DNA from: a bacterium
GTDB lineage: Bacteria; Gemmatimonadota; Glassbacteria; GWA2-58-10
Assembly: GCA_021372515.1 (NCBI GenBank)
Contig: JAJFUG010000155.1
Location: 1 to 38,090, forward strand
Direction of reading: 5' to 3'
DNA: 38,090 bases
Made by a program: the position numbers and the translations under genes. The notes beneath the pieces are model-generated. The model was not told the origin of the DNA, did not search any database, and saw only the letters and a list, made by a program, of their open reading frames with translations. Shown here piece after piece: positions 9,751 through 21,155 of this stretch (the stretch's first letter is position 1; each line of letters opens with the position of its first letter).

Positions 9751-10608
9751 TCAGTTCAGGAACGACTGCAGGGCGCGGCTGCGCGAGACATGCCGCAGAC
9801 GGCTGATCGCCTTTTCCTTGATCTGGCGCACACGCTCGCGGGTGATCCCCAGCACCGAGCCGATCTGCTCCAGGGTCATCGGTTCCTGGCCGCCCAGCCC
9901 GAAATACAGGCGCAGTATCTTGGCCTCGCGGTCCTTGAGCGTGCCCAGCGATTCCTCGATCGCGCTGGACAGGGCGTTCTCGAACGCACTCTCGGCCGGC
10001 CCGCGGTTATAGTTATCGGGCAGGTAGTCGAGCAGCCGGTTGTCCTCGCCCGGGGTGAGCGGGGCATCCAGCGACAGGTGCGACTGCGAGATCGAGAGGG
10101 TCTTGCGTATCTCCTCCAGGCTGATGTCCATGCCCTCGGCGATCTCCTCCACCGTGGGCTTGCGGCCCAGCTCCTGGGTCAGCATGTTGCTTTTCTTGCC
10201 GATCTTGTAGAGCGTGCCGGCACGGTTCAGCGGCACGCGCACGATCCGGCTCTGCTCGGCCAGGGCCTGCAGGATCGCCTGGCGGATCCACCAGACCGCG
10301 TACGAGATGAACTTGATGCCCTTCGTCTCATCGAACTTGTGCGCTGCGCGAATCAGGCCGACATTGCCCTCGTTGATCAGGTCGGCCAGCGAAACCCCCT
10401 GGTTCTGGTATTTTTTGGCCACGCTCACCACGAAACGCAGGTTGCTGCGGGTCAGCTTTTCCAGGGATTTCTGGCAGCCTTTCTTGATTGTTTTGGCCAG
10501 CTCGATTTCCTCTTCCCGGGTCAGCAACGGGTAGTTGCTGATCTCCTTGAGATATAGGTCGAGCGACCCTTCGTCGAAGTAAGACTTTTTCTGCTGATTC
10601 GCCTTCAT
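9751..10608 (-). CDS. rpoD: RNA polymerase primary-type sigma-70 factor
   Basis: This 285-aa sigma-70 factor lacks region 1.1, as do the short primary sigma factors of Bacteroidetes and relatives. Visible are region 1.2 (SLDLYLKEISNYPLLTREEE), region 2 (LADLINEGNVGLIRAAHKFD, then GIKFISYAVWWIRQAI), region 3 and region 4.2 with the helix-turn-helix LEQIGSVLGITRERVRQIKE. It would direct RNA polymerase to housekeeping promoters. An SD-like CAGGAG lies 10 bases before the ATG. It is the last gene of a minus-strand run behind three signal peptidase genes (61 bp gap), followed by a strong terminator. A second, alternative group 2 sigma factor remains possible. Confidence 0.92.
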   Translation of the reverse strand: MKANQQKKSYFDEGSLDLYLKEISNYPLLTREEEIELAKTIKKGCQKSLEKLTRSNLRFVVSVAKKYQNQGVSLADLINEGNVGLIRAAHKFDETKGIKFISYAVWWIRQAILQALAEQSRIVRVPLNRAGTLYKIGKKSNMLTQELGRKPTVEEIAEGMDISLEEIRKTLSISQSHLSLDAPLTPGEDNRLLDYLPDNYNRGPAESAFENALSSAIEESLGTLKDREAKILRLYFGLGGQEPMTLEQIGSVLGITRERVRQIKEKAISRLRHVSRSRALQSFLN

Positions 10609-10669: not shown

Positions 10670-11428
10670 TTATTGAATCAATTGCGCAATCCTGTTGAAA
10701 CGGGGCAGGTTGCGAGCGCTGTCCCAGGAGAAATATAGTATCAACGGCCTTCCCTTGATCAGATCGCGGTCCACGAAACCCCAGAACCGGCTGTCGCTGG
10801 AGGTGTCGCGGTTGTCGCCCAGACAGAAAAATTTGCCCGCCGGCACCACCAGCGGCCCGAAATTGTCGCGGGTCGGGTGGCTGCGCGGATCGTCAATTCT
10901 GTCCGGGTCGGCTCCCTCCACTAAATAGTCGAGCTGCCAGGCGAACTTATTCGGCTCGAACAGACGGTTACGCTCACAGCGCACCTCGGGGTCCACATGC
11001 TGCGCGTACGGCTCATCCTGGCGCACCCCGTTCACATAGAGCACCTTGTCCCGCATCGCCACCGTGTCGCCGCCCACGGCCACACAGCGTTTCACATACT
11101 CCTGGGTCCGGTCGAGCGGGTACTCGAACACCAGCACATCCCCGCGCTCGGGCCGCTCGTAGCCGGGCAGACGGAAACTGGGCAGTTTCACCCCGGTGAA
11201 CGGCACCCGGCTGGGAGATTCCGAGCCGAAAACAGCCTTGTTCACCAGCAGGAAATCACCCGGCAGCAGCGTGCGCTCCATCGAGCCGGAGGGCACGTGA
11301 TAGGCCTGGAGCAGGAACGGCCTCACTATCAGCAGAAAGAACAGCACGCCGAAAAGGGTCGACTTGACCCACTCGCCCAATCCGGGAGCCTTGGCCGACG
11401 GCTCGCTTTCCTGCAACTGCTCTTCCAC
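10670..11428 (-). CDS. lepB: Signal peptidase I, paralog 3
   Basis: Type I signal peptidase (252 aa) that cleaves export signals at the outer face of the inner membrane. One N-terminal membrane segment (about 24-41) is followed by VPSGSMERTLLPGD with catalytic Ser49. The general base is Lys113 in YVKRCVAVGGDT, and the C-terminal box is CLGDNRDTSSDSRFWGFV. The start is GTG 11428 with GAGG seven bases ahead. The stop of paralog 2 lies 25 bp upstream, so the genes are probably cotranscribed. It is closest in layout to paralog 1 but has its own insert (about residues 150-185). Confidence 0.94.
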   Translation of the reverse strand: MEEQLQESEPSAKAPGLGEWVKSTLFGVLFFLLIVRPFLLQAYHVPSGSMERTLLPGDFLLVNKAVFGSESPSRVPFTGVKLPSFRLPGYERPERGDVLVFEYPLDRTQEYVKRCVAVGGDTVAMRDKVLYVNGVRQDEPYAQHVDPEVRCERNRLFEPNKFAWQLDYLVEGADPDRIDDPRSHPTRDNFGPLVVPAGKFFCLGDNRDTSSDSRFWGFVDRDLIKGRPLILYFSWDSARNLPRFNRIAQLIQ

Positions 11429-11453: not shown

Positions 11454-12209
11454 CTACTGGATTATCCGCCCGATCCGGTCGAAGCGCGGAAAATAATGCT
11501 CTTTGTCCCACGAAAAGTAGATCACCAGTGGCCGCCCGAGCACCAGGTCCCGGTCCACGAAACCCCAGTAGCGGCTGTCGTAGCTGTCATCGCGGTTGTC
11601 GCCCAGACAGAAATAGGCGCCCTGCGGCACCACCAGCGGCCCGAAATTGTCCCGGTTCGGGCAATACTGCGAGCCATCCTCCGGGCGGGCCAGATAGCGC
11701 GCCTGCCACGTGTAATCCGGGCGGGAGAACATCCGTTCGCCCCGGGGCTGCACGGTCGGGTCGACATGCCGCACGTAGGGCTCGTCCTGTCGCACCCCGT
11801 TCACGTACAGGGTCTTGTCCCGCATCTCCACGGTGTCCCCGGCCAGACCCATGCAGCGCTTGACATAGGGCACGCTGCGGTCGAACGGCGGCTCGAGGAC
11901 TATTATATCCCCCCGCTCGGGCGCCGAAAAACCCGGCATGTGGAAGCGTGGCAGCTCCGTCTTGGTCAGGGGCAGCCGCTGGGGGGTTATCCCGCCGTAG
12001 GAGAGTTTTTCCACCAGTAGCAGGTCACCGGGCAGGATATTTTTCTCCATCGAGCCGGTGGGCACATAATAGCCCTGCAGAACGAACGGCCGCAGCACGA
12101 GCAGGAACAGCGCCAGGGCCACACCCAGGGTGCGGACCGATTCCAGCGCCAGGCGCCGTCCCCGGCCGACCGGGGTTTTTATATTTTGAGACGCTGTTTT
12201 CTTTTTCAT
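11454..12209 (-). CDS. lepB: Signal peptidase I, paralog 2
   Basis: Second of three tandem type I signal peptidases (251 aa from ATG 12209, behind a GA-rich SD-like stretch; GTG 12221 is a possible longer start). It has a basic N-terminus, a membrane segment (about 28-45), VPTGSMEKNILPGD with catalytic Ser53, YVKRCMGLAGDT with Lys117 and CLGDNRDDSYDSRYWGFV. It is the most divergent of the three (LAGD instead of VGGD, and a tyrosine/arginine-rich insert). Both catalytic residues are kept, so it should be active. Cleavage-site preference may differ among the paralogs, but that is not shown here. Confidence 0.93.
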   Translation of the reverse strand: MKKKTASQNIKTPVGRGRRLALESVRTLGVALALFLLVLRPFVLQGYYVPTGSMEKNILPGDLLLVEKLSYGGITPQRLPLTKTELPRFHMPGFSAPERGDIIVLEPPFDRSVPYVKRCMGLAGDTVEMRDKTLYVNGVRQDEPYVRHVDPTVQPRGERMFSRPDYTWQARYLARPEDGSQYCPNRDNFGPLVVPQGAYFCLGDNRDDSYDSRYWGFVDRDLVLGRPLVIYFSWDKEHYFPRFDRIGRIIQ

Positions 12210-12257
12210 CCTCACCCTCACCCTTTCTACCCCGCTTGGCGATCTGCGTTCGCCGGT

Positions 12258-12974
12258 TCAGCCAACAATCCGTCCTATCCGGCCGAAACGCGGCAGCCAG
12301 CGCCGGCTGTCCCACGAGAAATACAGGATGATCGGACGGCCCTTGATCAGACTGCGGTCCACAAACCCCCAGTAACGGCTGTCCAAGGAGGCGTCGCGGT
12401 TGTCCCCAAGACAAAAATATTTGCCCTCCGGGACCCAGAGCGGACCGAAATTGTCACGCGTCGGCTCGTAGTTGCCCTGCAACTGCTGCCGCGCCGAATC
12501 CACCATGTACTCGTACTGCCAGTCGAACTTGTTCGGGTCGAACGCCCGGTCCTCACGCCTGAGAATGTTGGGATCCGTATGCTGGGTGAAGGGCTCATCC
12601 TGCGGCACCCCGTTTACATACAGCACCTTGTCCCGCATCTCCACGGTGTCTCCGCCCACTGCCACGCAGCGCTTGACGAAATCGAGCGAACGGTCCTGCG
12701 GGTATTCGAAGACGACTATGTCACCCCGTTTCGGGTTCTCAACCGCCGGCAGACGGAAATACGGGAGCGATACATCTACGAACGGCAGCTTGCGCGGCGT
12801 GGTCGCCCCGTAGACCATTTTGTTGACTAAAAGAAAATCCCCCACCAAAAGCGTATTTTCCATCGATCCGGTGGGGATTTTAAAGGCCTGCACGAGGAAG
12901 GCCCTGATTATCAGAAAGAGCAAAAAAGCCAGACCGAGCGACTTGCCCCATTCTTTTACGAACTCATTTTTCAT
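12258..12974 (-). CDS. lepB: Signal peptidase I, paralog 1
   Basis: First of the three tandem signal peptidases (238 aa). It has a single N-terminal membrane segment (about 12-30), IPTGSMENTLLVGD with catalytic Ser37, FVKRCVAVGGDT with Lys101 and CLGDNRDASLDSRYWGFVD. The ATG at 12974 lacks a strong SD (GGAAG lies 13 bases away). The stop is 48 bp before the start of paralog 2. The AT-rich 165-bp gap upstream (12975-13139) must hold the operon promoter, but I could not fix a convincing -35/-10 pair. Confidence 0.94.
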   Translation of the reverse strand: MKNEFVKEWGKSLGLAFLLFLIIRAFLVQAFKIPTGSMENTLLVGDFLLVNKMVYGATTPRKLPFVDVSLPYFRLPAVENPKRGDIVVFEYPQDRSLDFVKRCVAVGGDTVEMRDKVLYVNGVPQDEPFTQHTDPNILRREDRAFDPNKFDWQYEYMVDSARQQLQGNYEPTRDNFGPLWVPEGKYFCLGDNRDASLDSRYWGFVDRSLIKGRPIILYFSWDSRRWLPRFGRIGRIVG

Positions 12975-13139
12975 GTCGCCGTTCGGTCTTCCTACCGGAT
13001 ATTCAACTTGTTAAAAATGATAAAGTTACACAATTGCTCAAGCTTTACTCGACTGAATCCGGTGAACCTCTAATTATAACCAGATTTAGCAAAAAATGTC
13101 AATGATAATCCGCTTTTCGACGAAGCCCGCCCAACCTCC

Positions 13140-13805
13140 TCAGCAACCCTTGCCCTGCTCCACCATCCGGCGCAGGGCCCGGGCGAATTCGAGCCGCGCA
13201 ACCCGCCGGGACGGCACCTTGAGACTGCTGCCGCTGCGCGGATCACGCACCGCATGGGCCGGCTGCTCGCGGGTGATGAAAGCCCCGAACCCGCGCAGGC
13301 GCACCTGCCCGCCACCGGCCAGGGTGTCGCCCACCACGCTCAGCACCTCCTCGAGGACCTTTTTCACCGTGTCGCGCCCCAGACCGCTACGCTCGGCCAC
13401 CCGTTCCACCAGGTCGGCCCGGGTCAGGCTGGGCGAGGGGGTGAGCTGCCGCTGACGGTAGAACTCCGCCAGCTCGGTTTCGAGCTCCTGGCGGGGCAGC
13501 TTGGCCGTGGCCACCAGCAACTGGCCGATCCGGATACGGCAGACCTCATCCTTCGCCCGCAGATGTTCCTCCTGCGCGCGGGTCAGGATACCCAGCTCCA
13601 CGGCGCACTCGGCGAATGTCAAGCCCGTGCGGTCCACCTGCTCCAGGATACTTCCCACGTCTCTGTATGTGATGATGTCGTTGGCCAGGGCCACCGCGCC
13701 CAGACTGTCCTTGAGGATGTCCTGCAGCATCAGCGCCTCCTCGATGTCCTCCTGACTTACGAGTCCGCGCCGGATCAGATATTGGCCGAACAACTCCTTT
13801 GCCAT
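13140..13805 (-). CDS. Fusion of GspE/MshE-N-like repeats with an HU-family DNA-binding domain
   Basis: This 221-aa protein carries three copies of a G-x2-L-V/I-x3-G-x-L/V-[ST]-x3-like helical motif at about residues 4-28, 63-86 and 93-116. The motif resembles the N-terminal domain of GspE/MshE ATPases, where it binds partners or c-di-GMP. Residues 127-215 are an HU/IHF-type domain (LTRADLVERVAERSGL, VRLRGFGAFITRE, then DPRSGSSLKVPSRRVARLEF). It could be a nucleoid protein that responds to a signal or tethers DNA to a machine, which is inference. The start is ATG 13805 with a GGCAGGG SD. A TTG at 13859 would add 18 residues. It is followed by a 165-bp gap and the lepB genes. Confidence 0.75.
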   Translation of the reverse strand: MAKELFGQYLIRRGLVSQEDIEEALMLQDILKDSLGAVALANDIITYRDVGSILEQVDRTGLTFAECAVELGILTRAQEEHLRAKDEVCRIRIGQLLVATAKLPRQELETELAEFYRQRQLTPSPSLTRADLVERVAERSGLGRDTVKKVLEEVLSVVGDTLAGGGQVRLRGFGAFITREQPAHAVRDPRSGSSLKVPSRRVARLEFARALRRMVEQGKGC

Positions 13806-13872: not shown

Positions 13873-13902
13873 ACTTTACCACGGCCGGCACCCGGATGTC
13901 AA
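13873..13902 (-). promoter_or_regulatory. Sigma-70 promoter for the HU-fusion gene
   Basis: On the minus strand TTGACA (13902-13897) and TAAAGT (13878-13873) are separated by 18 bp, 67 bp before the ATG at 13805. The perfect -35 and near-consensus -10 make it convincing. It is divergent from the trxB promoter. Confidence 0.65.
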
Positions 13903-14031: not shown

Positions 14032-14973
14032 ATGGTTACAGAAAAAATCACCCGCCTCCGTCAGGCCATCGTGGGCAGCGGTGCGGCCGGGCTCACCGCG
14101 GCGATCTACTCGGCGCGGGCGGGCCTGGAGCCGCTGGTGTTCGAGGGCGACCTGCCCGGCGGACAGCTCACCACCACCACCGAGGTGGAAAACTTTCCCG
14201 GGTTCGAGAACGGCATCCAGGGCCCCGAGCTGATGGACACGCTCAAGCGCCAGGCGGCCCGGTTCGGGGCGACTTTCGCCCCGCGCGGGATCGAAAGCGT
14301 GGACTTTTCGGCTGACAGACTGCTCCTCAAGTCCGATCAGGACTCCTGGCAGGCCGAGAGTGTGATTATCGCCACCGGGGCCAGCCCGCGGCTTCTGGGC
14401 CTGCCCTCCGAGCGCAGGTTCATGGGCCGCGGGGTGAGCACCTGCGCCACCTGTGACGCCTTTTTCTACCGCGGCAAGCGGGTGGCCGTGGTGGGCGGAG
14501 GGGACTCGGCCATGGAGGAGGTCTCGTTCATCGCGCGTTTCGCCTCCGAGGTGGCCCTGATCCACCGCCGTAGCGAGTTCCGCGCCTCGAAGATCATGAT
14601 CGAGCGGGTGCGCTCCAACCCCAAGATCGAAATCATCCGGGACAGCGTGGTGGAGGAGGTGCTGGGCGATGACGCGCGCGGGGTGTACGCGGTGCGGCTG
14701 AAGAACGTGAAGAGCGGACAGACGAGCGAGCGGGAGCTGGACGGGATTTTCATGGCGATCGGGCACACGCCCAACTCGCAGCCCTTTGCGGGGCAGGTGG
14801 AAATGGACGCCGAGGGATATATTCTCACGTTCGACGGCACAATGACCAGTGTGCCGGGGGTGTTCGCGGCCGGGGACGTGGTGGACCACCGTTACCGCCA
14901 GGCGATCACCGCGGCCGGGATGGGCTGCCGGGCCAGCCTGGACGCCGAAAAATGGCTGGCCGCCAGGGAATGA
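14032..14973 (+). CDS. trxB: Thioredoxin reductase (NADPH)
   Basis: This cytoplasmic FAD enzyme transfers electrons from NADPH to thioredoxin. The 313 aa show the FAD-binding GSGAAGLTAAIYSARAG (residues 15-31), the redox pair CATC (Cys138, Cys141), the NADPH loop VVGGGDSAMEE (about 154-164) and the C-terminal FAD motif GVFAAGDVVDHRYRQ. Length and order are those of the low-molecular-weight bacterial family. HRRSEFRAS after the second Rossmann motif fits NADPH rather than NADH. AGGAG at 14017-14021 supports the start. The next gene converges, with a hairpin at the shared end. Confidence 0.96.
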   Translation: MVTEKITRLRQAIVGSGAAGLTAAIYSARAGLEPLVFEGDLPGGQLTTTTEVENFPGFENGIQGPELMDTLKRQAARFGATFAPRGIESVDFSADRLLLKSDQDSWQAESVIIATGASPRLLGLPSERRFMGRGVSTCATCDAFFYRGKRVAVVGGGDSAMEEVSFIARFASEVALIHRRSEFRASKIMIERVRSNPKIEIIRDSVVEEVLGDDARGVYAVRLKNVKSGQTSERELDGIFMAIGHTPNSQPFAGQVEMDAEGYILTFDGTMTSVPGVFAAGDVVDHRYRQAITAAGMGCRASLDAEKWLAARE

Positions 14974-14992
14974 GGGCCGCCCTGTGCGGCCC
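14974..14992. terminator. Hairpin between convergent trxB and lipoprotein
   Basis: GGGCCGC (14974-14980) and GCGGCCC (14986-14992) form a 7-bp perfect stem directly after the trxB stop and touching the stop of the convergent lipoprotein gene. There is no clear T-run, so termination efficiency is uncertain. Confidence 0.45.
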
Positions 14993-15699
14993 TATTCGAT
15001 CAAATCGCACCTCACAACATGCTCTTCGTCAAAGTGTATTCCACCGCTTGTTTGACGGAATACTACATTGAGTATCCCTTTGTTTTTAAGCATCGCGGCA
15101 TAAGTTTCTGAATTAGAACCGTATTTACACGTATCGCCATATACCCCCGTCGAATAAAAGCCATCCTCGGTTGAAAACGGGAACAGCCTCAGGTACATCT
15201 TTCCTCCGCATCCGATTGGAGAGGCCATCATCAGCGTAGTGTCACCCGCGTCGAGCTGTTCGAAGCTTGGCGCGTTTTCTACGTACCATAAAGAGCCGTT
15301 TTTGAGCATCAGATCGTACTCTTTGATCGTAATGGAGTCAGGGACGCTTTGCCAGATCGTATCTTCAGGATTGATGAAGTAATAATCCGCTTGCAGTGAG
15401 AACGCGGTCCTGATTTTATAGAAAATTTCTTTTTCAGATTCTTTTACATGCGTGTCGATCACTTCCAGGTTTAACATGCCGTCTTTTCGGAAACATCTCG
15501 CCAGGCCGTACGAGTCTTCCCAGTAGGAAACTTGCAAGTATTTATAATAATACGAGTACTGCGCCTTATATCCCTTCTGCAATGGGAAATAAACCAGCTC
15601 GCTTTCGGCCAGGCTTTCCGGCCCGAAAGGAAGCGAGTCCTCCGAGCAGGCAATCGACAGGATAATCATAAGCAAAACGCCGCAGGCTGCAATTCGCAT
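14992..15699 (-). CDS. Hypothetical lipoprotein, paralog of the one at 20.4 kb
   Basis: Unrecognised 235-aa protein with a lipoprotein signal MRIAACGVLLMIILSIAC (Cys18). AAAGGG seven bases upstream supports ATG 15699, while ATG 15738 and TTG 15750 would add a charged leader. After the lipobox come SEDSLPFGPESLAESELVYFP, LEVIDTHVKESEKEIFYKIRT and NGSLWYVENAPSFEQLDAGD. The second lipoprotein (20418-21155) shares each of these blocks, so the two form a paralogous family, about 40% identical by eye. Many aromatic residues and beta-prone segments suggest a beta-sheet fold. AT-richer than its neighbours, it may be accessory or acquired. Function unknown. Confidence 0.8.
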   Translation of the reverse strand: MRIAACGVLLMIILSIACSEDSLPFGPESLAESELVYFPLQKGYKAQYSYYYKYLQVSYWEDSYGLARCFRKDGMLNLEVIDTHVKESEKEIFYKIRTAFSLQADYYFINPEDTIWQSVPDSITIKEYDLMLKNGSLWYVENAPSFEQLDAGDTTLMMASPIGCGGKMYLRLFPFSTEDGFYSTGVYGDTCKYGSNSETYAAMLKNKGILNVVFRQTSGGIHFDEEHVVRCDLIE

Positions 15700-15999
15700 C
15701 TCCCACCCTTTGCTGAATTGTTCAGACGGGGATTTCATTTTCTTTGCCAACGATTATCTGCATTTTACACGCCAAAATACACTTTTCCCCTATCTGATAA
15801 ATTATAACAATTTATGAATACAAAACCGCTTTTTGAGCACCGGCGTGTGTTCCTCAACGGGTAACACCTCCGCCGGAAATTGTCAGCCGGGATGTGCACT
15901 CCCCCGCCGCAGAGCGCAATCCGGCTTTTTCATCATCACGGCGGATATGAGCAAAAAATGTCAAGCTTCGGCGCGCGGGGGGCTTTACATTGGAGCAGG

Positions 16000-20417: not shown

Positions 20418-21155
20418 TTACTCTATCAACTCAAGTCTTATCTCGGATTCGTCGTAATTCGACTGGGAGTCTATTATACTTCTGTCTTCTATGAGTGTGA
20501 TCCCTTTATTTTTTTCGGTATAACAACAACCGGAAGGATAATCACAATACCCACAAATATTTGAATTATCTACGCTTATGTCCCCTTGATAGCGATATAT
20601 AGCACTGCCGAACACCCCAGCAGGAAAAAGTAACAAGTGCATTTCTCCCCCGCTTGCCACTGGGGAAGCCATCATCAGGGTGGTGTCCCCCTCCTCCAGG
20701 CGCTCGAAGCTCGGGGCGTTGGTCACGTACCAGAGAGAACCGTTTGTCTGCATAATATAGTGTTCAGTTGTTGTGGTTGTATCTGTCCGGCTGATCCAGG
20801 TAGTGTCTGATGGACTCTTATAGGAATAGGTTGCTTTTATGACAAATACGGTCCTTATTTTATAGAAAACCTCCTTCTCGGATTCTTTGGTATAAGTGTC
20901 AATCACTTCCAGATGAAACTCCCCATCTTTCCGCCAGTTATTTTCATATCTCCCTCCGGTGATAATTTCATATCCGAGTTTTTCGGAGAAGTAATAATTA
21001 TAATCGACTTTATAACCTTTCCGCAGCGGGAAGAAAGCCAGATCTTTTTTAGCCAGGCTTTCCGGCCCGAAAGGCACGGAGTCGTCCGAGCAAGCGGCCG
21101 CAGCCAGGGCCGCCACAGCCAGGCACAACAGCGGGAGTTTAGTCTTCAGCGGCAT
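20418..21155 (-). CDS. Hypothetical lipoprotein, paralog of the one at 15.0 kb
   Basis: 245-aa lipoprotein with signal MPLKTKLPLLCLAVAALAAAAC and mature start SDDSVPFGPESLAKKDLAFFP. It shares blocks LEVIDTYTKESEKEVFYKIRT, NGSLWYVTNAPSFERLEEGDT and TLMMASP with the lipoprotein at 14992-15699. It differs by a Thr-rich loop (about 120-130) and a Cys-rich stretch CGYCDYPSGCCYTEKNKG near the end. GGAAGAG precedes the ATG. The signal peptide is GC-rich while the mature part is AT-rich. No function is recognised. The 213-bp gap downstream to the RND gene shows only G-rich runs and no gene. Confidence 0.8.
   Translation of the reverse strand: MPLKTKLPLLCLAVAALAAAACSDDSVPFGPESLAKKDLAFFPLRKGYKVDYNYYFSEKLGYEIITGGRYENNWRKDGEFHLEVIDTYTKESEKEVFYKIRTVFVIKATYSYKSPSDTTWISRTDTTTTTEHYIMQTNGSLWYVTNAPSFERLEEGDTTLMMASPVASGGEMHLLLFPAGVFGSAIYRYQGDISVDNSNICGYCDYPSGCCYTEKNKGITLIEDRSIIDSQSNYDESEIRLELIE

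Follow-up and report, generated by a model that had tools for sequence, protein, structure and literature searches.

Translation of a reading frame on the minus strand of the window (the whole stretch of DNA that was analysed, 38,090 nucleotides) gives a protein of 221 codons, which opens with ATG and comprises two distinct domains: an N-terminal four-hairpin module and a C-terminal HU/IHF-type domain (Table 1). In the AlphaFold2 model, built from 27 aligned rows (mean pLDDT of 88 and pTM of 0.50), eight helices form the four hairpins and are followed by the HU fold; the model is confident for each domain, but not for the placement of one domain relative to the other. The N-terminal part is acidic (pI 4.7~5.8) and the HU part is basic (pI 10.7~12.0). 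Pfam and NCBIfam scans found no T2SSE ATPase domain in the fusion protein, whereas this domain is present in another protein of the same genome (L039). That the fusion is an assembly artefact or a chance open frame, a reading for which the assembly of the window genome as 222 contigs gives some ground, was rejected: it is refuted by full-length homologues of 48~52% identity in five other genomes, by profile matches on both domains and by the shuffle test described below.

Table 1. Features of the fusion gene and its surroundings (positions in the window; residue numbers of the fusion protein).
Feature	Residues	Positions	Strand	Remarks
sigma70-family gene (presumed)		9751..10608	-	next conserved neighbour after lepB
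lepB (signal peptidase I; presumed)		12258..12974	-	conserved downstream neighbour
lepB promoter-like site		13073..13102	-	TTGACA-18-TATAAT, sigma70 consensus 12/12; similar sites at this location in 6/6 family genomes
whole fusion gene		13140..13805	-	221 aa; ATG start at 13805, stop 13140-13142; translation and full-length counterparts in 6/6 family genomes
HU/IHF-type domain	127-215	13161..13427	-	PF00216; fold; GFGxF and β-arm RxPRxG
linker	121-126	13428..13445	-	0/6 positions invariant; low pLDDT at 122-124
motif 4	92-115	13461..13532	-	RIGQLLVATAK...F; R1 and G3 kept; F at 24; GQLLVATxK invariant
motif 3	63-86	13548..13619	-	most degenerate; without G3 and Q24
motif 2	34-57	13635..13706	-	S34 and V57 in place of R and Q
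motif 1	5-28	13722..13793	-	LFG...Q; half-site intact; 13/24 positions invariant in 5 orthologues
fusion promoter-like site		13873..13902	-	TTGACA-18-TAAAGT with TG extension; conserved in 6/6 family genomes
trxB-like gene (presumed)		14032..14973	+	divergent conserved neighbour

We take the neighbours of the fusion gene to be a divergent trxB-like gene on one side and, on the other, a lepB gene (the name used in the original prediction) and a sigma70-family gene; this order, trxB followed by the fusion, lepB and sigma70, is kept in all six genomes of the family. The window carries three tandem lepB-like genes between the fusion and the sigma70-family gene (10670-11428, 11454-12221 and 12258-12974, all on the minus strand), which are 55~63% identical to one another, and each of the other five family genomes has one copy at this place. 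Upstream of the fusion, an invariant CTTGACA and the element TG-N-TA(A/G)AGT recur in six of six genomes with an 18-base spacing, 67~101 nt before the ATG, and the rest of this intergenic region aligns poorly among the six. We infer that the site is the phylogenetic footprint of a predicted housekeeping promoter of the extended -10 type. A second strong promoter-like site sits 3~37 nt after the fusion stop and before lepB, again in all six genomes. No Rfam element was found in the window at the gathering threshold.

Because the fusion and lepB each possess a promoter-like site of their own, they are probably separate transcription units, and a common operon was rejected. The suggestion that the fusion keeps envelope processes in step with the lepB genes next to it thereby loses its main support, and we consider it highly improbable. 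The gene order conserved in six of six genomes speaks for it, but such order kept inside one family is weak functional evidence; moreover, the sigma70-family gene is an equally conserved neighbour, and, of the six genomes, only that of the window has lepB in a tandem array.

The C-terminal domain matches PF00216 with an E-value of 2.7e-20 (72.8 bits against a cut-off of 22.4), with boundaries exactly at the residues that had been assigned to HU beforehand, and the same model scores 83.9~88.9 bits in four orthologues. Structure comparison of the model matched the HU part (residues 127-216) to 1riy, with a Z score of 11.7 and an RMSD of 0.7 over 71 residues. The domain shares with the HU/IHF family the fold, the GFGxF motif and the RxPRxG β-arm; however, family members are single domains of about 90 residues, whereas the fusion adds an N-terminal module of 120 residues, and it scores under the equivalog cut-offs for IHF-alpha (63 against 111 bits), IHF-beta and HU. 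Residues R187, P189, R190 and G192 of the β-arm, which include the position of the intercalating proline, and F173, G174 and F176 of the GFGxF motif are invariant in five of five orthologues. As the proline-tipped arm and the GFGxF motif are retained, DNA bending by this domain is likely, judging from its residues. Its β-arm is poorer in basic residues than those of the unfused HU proteins used for comparison. Eight HU-domain matches were found in the genome, including the fusion, and with seven other HU-domain genes at hand, the HU of the fusion is probably specialised. In having an HU domain with an extra module, the protein also resembles the HU-HIG family (PF18291), in which HU is fused to a wHTH, Ig or Gly-rich motif; however, the extra module here is N-terminal and made of four hairpins, and the PF18291 match (residues 120-179, 30.3 bits against a cut-off of 26.2) overlaps the HU domain, on which PF00216 scores far higher.

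The N-terminal module (residues 5-115) consists of four tandem MshEN/GSPII-type helical hairpins of 24 residues each, joined by five-residue linkers; the spacing reported for MshEN is 24+5+24 residues (PMC5013675). In this four-motif register, 25 of 44 consensus positions are matched; when the same residues were shuffled 10,000 times, the mean was 11.0 and the maximum 18, and no shuffle scored as high. The model NF053729 (NCBIfam), which describes c-di-GMP motifs related to MshE, gives 38.3 bits on the whole protein (cut-off 38) and 41.5 bits on residues 1-122 alone; among the five orthologues it is over the cut-off in three (38.3, 42.6 and 42.6) and under it in two (31.1 and 29.7). A profile of 15 N-domains searched against the PDB found Thermus PilF (E 7.8e-13), V. 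cholerae MshE (3e-7) and PilB (3e-5), and its best MshE stretch covers model positions 3-58, which correspond to motifs 1 and 2. Modelled alone, the N-terminal part reaches a mean pLDDT of 80.6. Residues 32-88 of the model (motifs 2 and 3) superpose on residues 7-63 of c-di-GMP-bound MshE (5htl_B) with a Z score of 10.6 and an RMSD of 1.5 over 57 residues, against about 8 for fumarases, Z scores below about 13 being weak by themselves for helical bundles. The profile thus favours motifs 1 and 2, and the structure motifs 2 and 3, as the counterpart of the MshE pair. Foldseek returned no match to the N-terminal part alone at E <= 0.001. The matches of motifs 2 and 3 to FumaraseC_C, fumarase and aspartase (E 0.0059, under the cut-off; Z about 8) were taken to reflect a shared helical arrangement, and a DUF2267 match of 24.6 bits lies under its cut-off of 29.8.

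The Pfam MshEN model PF05157 did not match the fusion up to an E-value of 10, nor four orthologues up to an E-value of 1. In the GspE/PilB of the same genome the motif pair comes first and the PF05157 match starts at residue 64; on this sequence comparison the PF05157 subdomain is absent from the fusion. Thus, the fusion shares with MshE, PilF and PilB the 24-residue motifs, the five-residue linkers and the pairing of helical hairpins, but differs in having four motifs in a row with neither the PF05157 subdomain nor an ATPase, an HU domain in their stead, and loss of the R and Q contacts in motif 2 and of G and Q in motif 3. Altogether, sequence profiles and the predicted fold show that the N-terminal module descends from MshEN/GSPII c-di-GMP motifs. 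The original prediction of an HU domain fused to an MshE-N/GspE-N-type module is therefore borne out by PF00216, NF053729, the N-domain profile and the structural matches, and the relation of the N-terminus to these families is what the profile searches do return; the count of three repeats, however, has to be raised to four.

Among 61 genomes (the genome of the window and 60 relatives), full-length matches to the fusion are present in six of the six genomes of its own family and are missing from the remaining 55. A five-row profile searched against 395 genomes of the phylum matched the six family genomes at E-values of 1.2e-99 or better, compared to a best of 1.3e-22 in the other 389, where the domain pair was not found and where, among the matches listed, only the HU domain was covered. 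Outside the phylum the search extended to one other phylum, viral contigs and plasmids, and the fusion may exist elsewhere: 299 genomes of the other phylum gave no match at E <= 1e-25, in a group that held no positive control; the viral contigs yielded no fusion; and none of 170 plasmid records with a match covered 80% of the query. A single-protein search of genome contigs returned one locus, matching HU only. In one family member (G005) the frame is interrupted by a stop codon between the domains (L012:1831-1833), which may be decay or an assembly error; the fusion is intact in the other five. These five form one group in the tree with support of 99/96, and only this grouping was used, because the branches of the tree are long and its root is arbitrary. 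We read the fusion as a lineage-specific, single-copy, chromosomal gene that is vertically kept in the family.

Across the five intact orthologues, mean pairwise identity is 56.7% in residues 1-120 (45/120 invariant) versus 46.4% in the HU domain (19/89 invariant). The N-terminal part is more conserved than its DNA-binding partner, and so, as far as sequence comparison goes, it is under constraint. Invariant positions are most frequent in motifs 1 (13/24) and 4 (12/24) and least frequent in motif 3 (4/24). The distribution of the four-motif module itself hardly extends beyond the family of the fusion: matches were found in 8 of 150 genomes, namely the six of the family and two of another group (f8) with partial N-profile matches of 55-56 positions.

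The contacts published for each MshEN motif are position 1 (Arg stacking), Leu2, Gly3, Leu17, Leu21 and Gln24, and perfect conservation of the motif may not be required for binding, as noted by Wang et al. (PMC5013675). In the fusion, the half-site of motif 1 is complete in five of five orthologues (L5, G7, I21, L25 and Q28). In all five intact orthologues, position 1 of motif 2 is S or T rather than R and position 24 is V, M or I rather than Q, and motif 3 has neither G3 nor Q24; motif 4 keeps R in four of five and its Gly, with Phe replacing Q at position 24. When R, K or L at position 1, G3 and Q24 are asked of both motifs in a pair, the full set is found in motif 1 and is missing from motifs 2, 3 and 4. 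By contrast, ten of ten unfused four-motif relatives retain the motif-2 Gln, the motif-3 Gly and the motif-3 Gln, each of which is found in none of the five fusions. This comparison shows, at the level of residues, that erosion of the putative central pocket (motifs 2 and 3) is specific to the fusion clade, and the eroded pair is the one that superposes on the MshE complex with c-di-GMP.

Biochemical passages on Thermus PilF help to read these substitutions. GSPII-B binds c-di-GMP with a KD of 6 nM while having Lys and Leu rather than Arg at position 1, and its K167L variant, with Leu at that position, binds tighter (KD 2 nM); single Gln-to-Glu changes weaken binding 77- to 158-fold and the double Gln mutant is non-binding (PMC11731258). 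In GSPII-A, Ser at position 1 of motif II blocks binding also when both Gln residues are put back, and with Ala in place of Gly3 binding is about 30-fold weaker (PMC12002112). By analogy with GSPII-B, where Leu is tolerated or even preferred, L5 of motif 1 is permissive for binding. Motif 2 of the fusion resembles the non-binder GSPII-A, in which Ser at position 1 of motif II is likewise combined with loss of the Gln at position 24; however, GSPII-A lacks Gln in both motifs and stands in a different context, whereas motif 1 of the fusion keeps its Gln. Owing to the loss of contact residues in motifs 2 and 3, canonical c-di-GMP sensing by the fusion appears unlikely, although the half-site of motif 1 is intact.

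We weighed whether the fusion is a nucleoid protein gated by c-di-GMP, in which the N-terminal module, through a site of motifs 1 and 2 or of motifs 1 and 4, binds the nucleotide and thereby alters HU dimerisation or DNA bending. The intact half-site of motif 1, with its tolerated Leu, and five GGDEF matches in the genome are consistent with this, as are precedents in other folds, namely the c-di-GMP-binding nucleoid proteins CdbA of M. xanthus (PMC7156744) and Lsr2 of mycobacteria (PMC10808224). The likeness to these two is one of general idea, a nucleoid protein tied to c-di-GMP: CdbA is described as a ribbon-helix-helix protein, and for the window protein a c-di-GMP link is suggested by motif ancestry. 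The second half-site is gone (S/T34 and V/M/I57), motif 3 lacks G3 and Q24, the Ser and double-Gln cases of PilF do not bind, and a stand-alone paralogue, L002, which has R...Q in both motifs 1 and 2, is a better candidate for a c-di-GMP receptor in this genome. Consequently, we regard such gating as unlikely. The proposed "sensing or docking" role is thereby divided, since docking remains open to the module and canonical sensing finds no support in the five intact orthologues when set against their ten relatives and the comparable losses in GSPII-A.

With moderate confidence, we propose instead that the fusion is an HU-type architectural protein whose MshEN-like module has been repurposed for ligand-independent docking or self-association. 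Complexes of the PilB N-domain with PilZ (7lkn and 7lkm) are among the structural matches of the N-terminal part (Z 8.2, likewise in the weak range for helical bundles), and they indicate that the MshEN-like fold class can be a protein-docking surface. As its family and retained residues suggest, the C-terminal domain would dimerise and bend DNA, and each HU dimer would display two acidic four-hairpin modules. These modules may self-associate or dock a partner without any ligand, and with two of them per dimer, DNA-bound HU could bridge DNA segments or recruit a factor. Footprinting suggests that the fusion would be expressed from its own conserved promoter, apart from lepB and sigma70.

Against the docking reading, the intact half-site of motif 1, together with R92 and the strongly invariant GQLLVATxK of motif 4, could mean a ligand. 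In one version, the motif 1 half-site and motif 4 (R92, G94 and GQLLVATxK) would build a composite pocket, in one chain or across the HU dimer, and a cyclic dinucleotide or other nucleotide bound there would switch DNA bending or bridging; we consider this unlikely. Binding of some other small ligand, e.g. another nucleotide, to the conserved surfaces of motifs 1 and 4 seems to us distinctly improbable: the concentration of invariant residues in these two motifs as opposed to motif 3 favours it, but no search points to any ligand.

HU is commonly regarded as a small architectural protein that is blind to signals. Its fusion to a module derived from a second-messenger sensor, in which the N-terminal part is more conserved than the DNA-binding part, indicates that HU acquired a second job in this lineage. 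If a ligand is bound, chromosome architecture would be wired directly to a small-molecule signal through HU; if none is, the ligand-independent docking that we favour would be a clear natural case of a sensor module that lost its pocket and was reused. The domain architecture is new, although its component parts are known: no HU-MshEN fusion was found in the open-licence PMC literature, and the passages of PMC5013675 that deal with MshEN partner domains name ATPase, glycosyltransferase, REC, HD-GYP, CheA, CheX, cyclase and kinase domains, with HU not mentioned there.

Besides the HU fusion, two other kinds of four-motif protein occur in the family: some stand alone (L002, L005 and their relatives), and others continue into an additional C-terminal domain (L006 and L063-L065). 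The stand-alone proteins L002, L005 and L059-L062 are about 130-140 residues long; as motifs 1 and 2 of L002 and L059 both have R and Q, these two proteins are candidates for c-di-GMP adaptors. The C-terminal domain that follows the module in L006, L063 and L064 has no Pfam match, and we assume that this domain, in L006 and L063-L065, is CheX-like. Elsewhere in the window genome, a GGDEF-domain gene (L003, contig C39, positions 51-1508) precedes an ordinary HU gene of 95 residues on the same strand (1522-1809), with 13 bases between them, a possible operon, and on contig C109 a CheA-type kinase (L045) has a pair of MshEN motifs lying between the N-terminal part and the kinase core. Within the window, two paralogous frames on the minus strand (14992-15750 and 20418-21155) share a CS-DS-PFGPESLA start; they are presumably lipoprotein-like and flank what we take to be AraC-like and RND-efflux-like genes.
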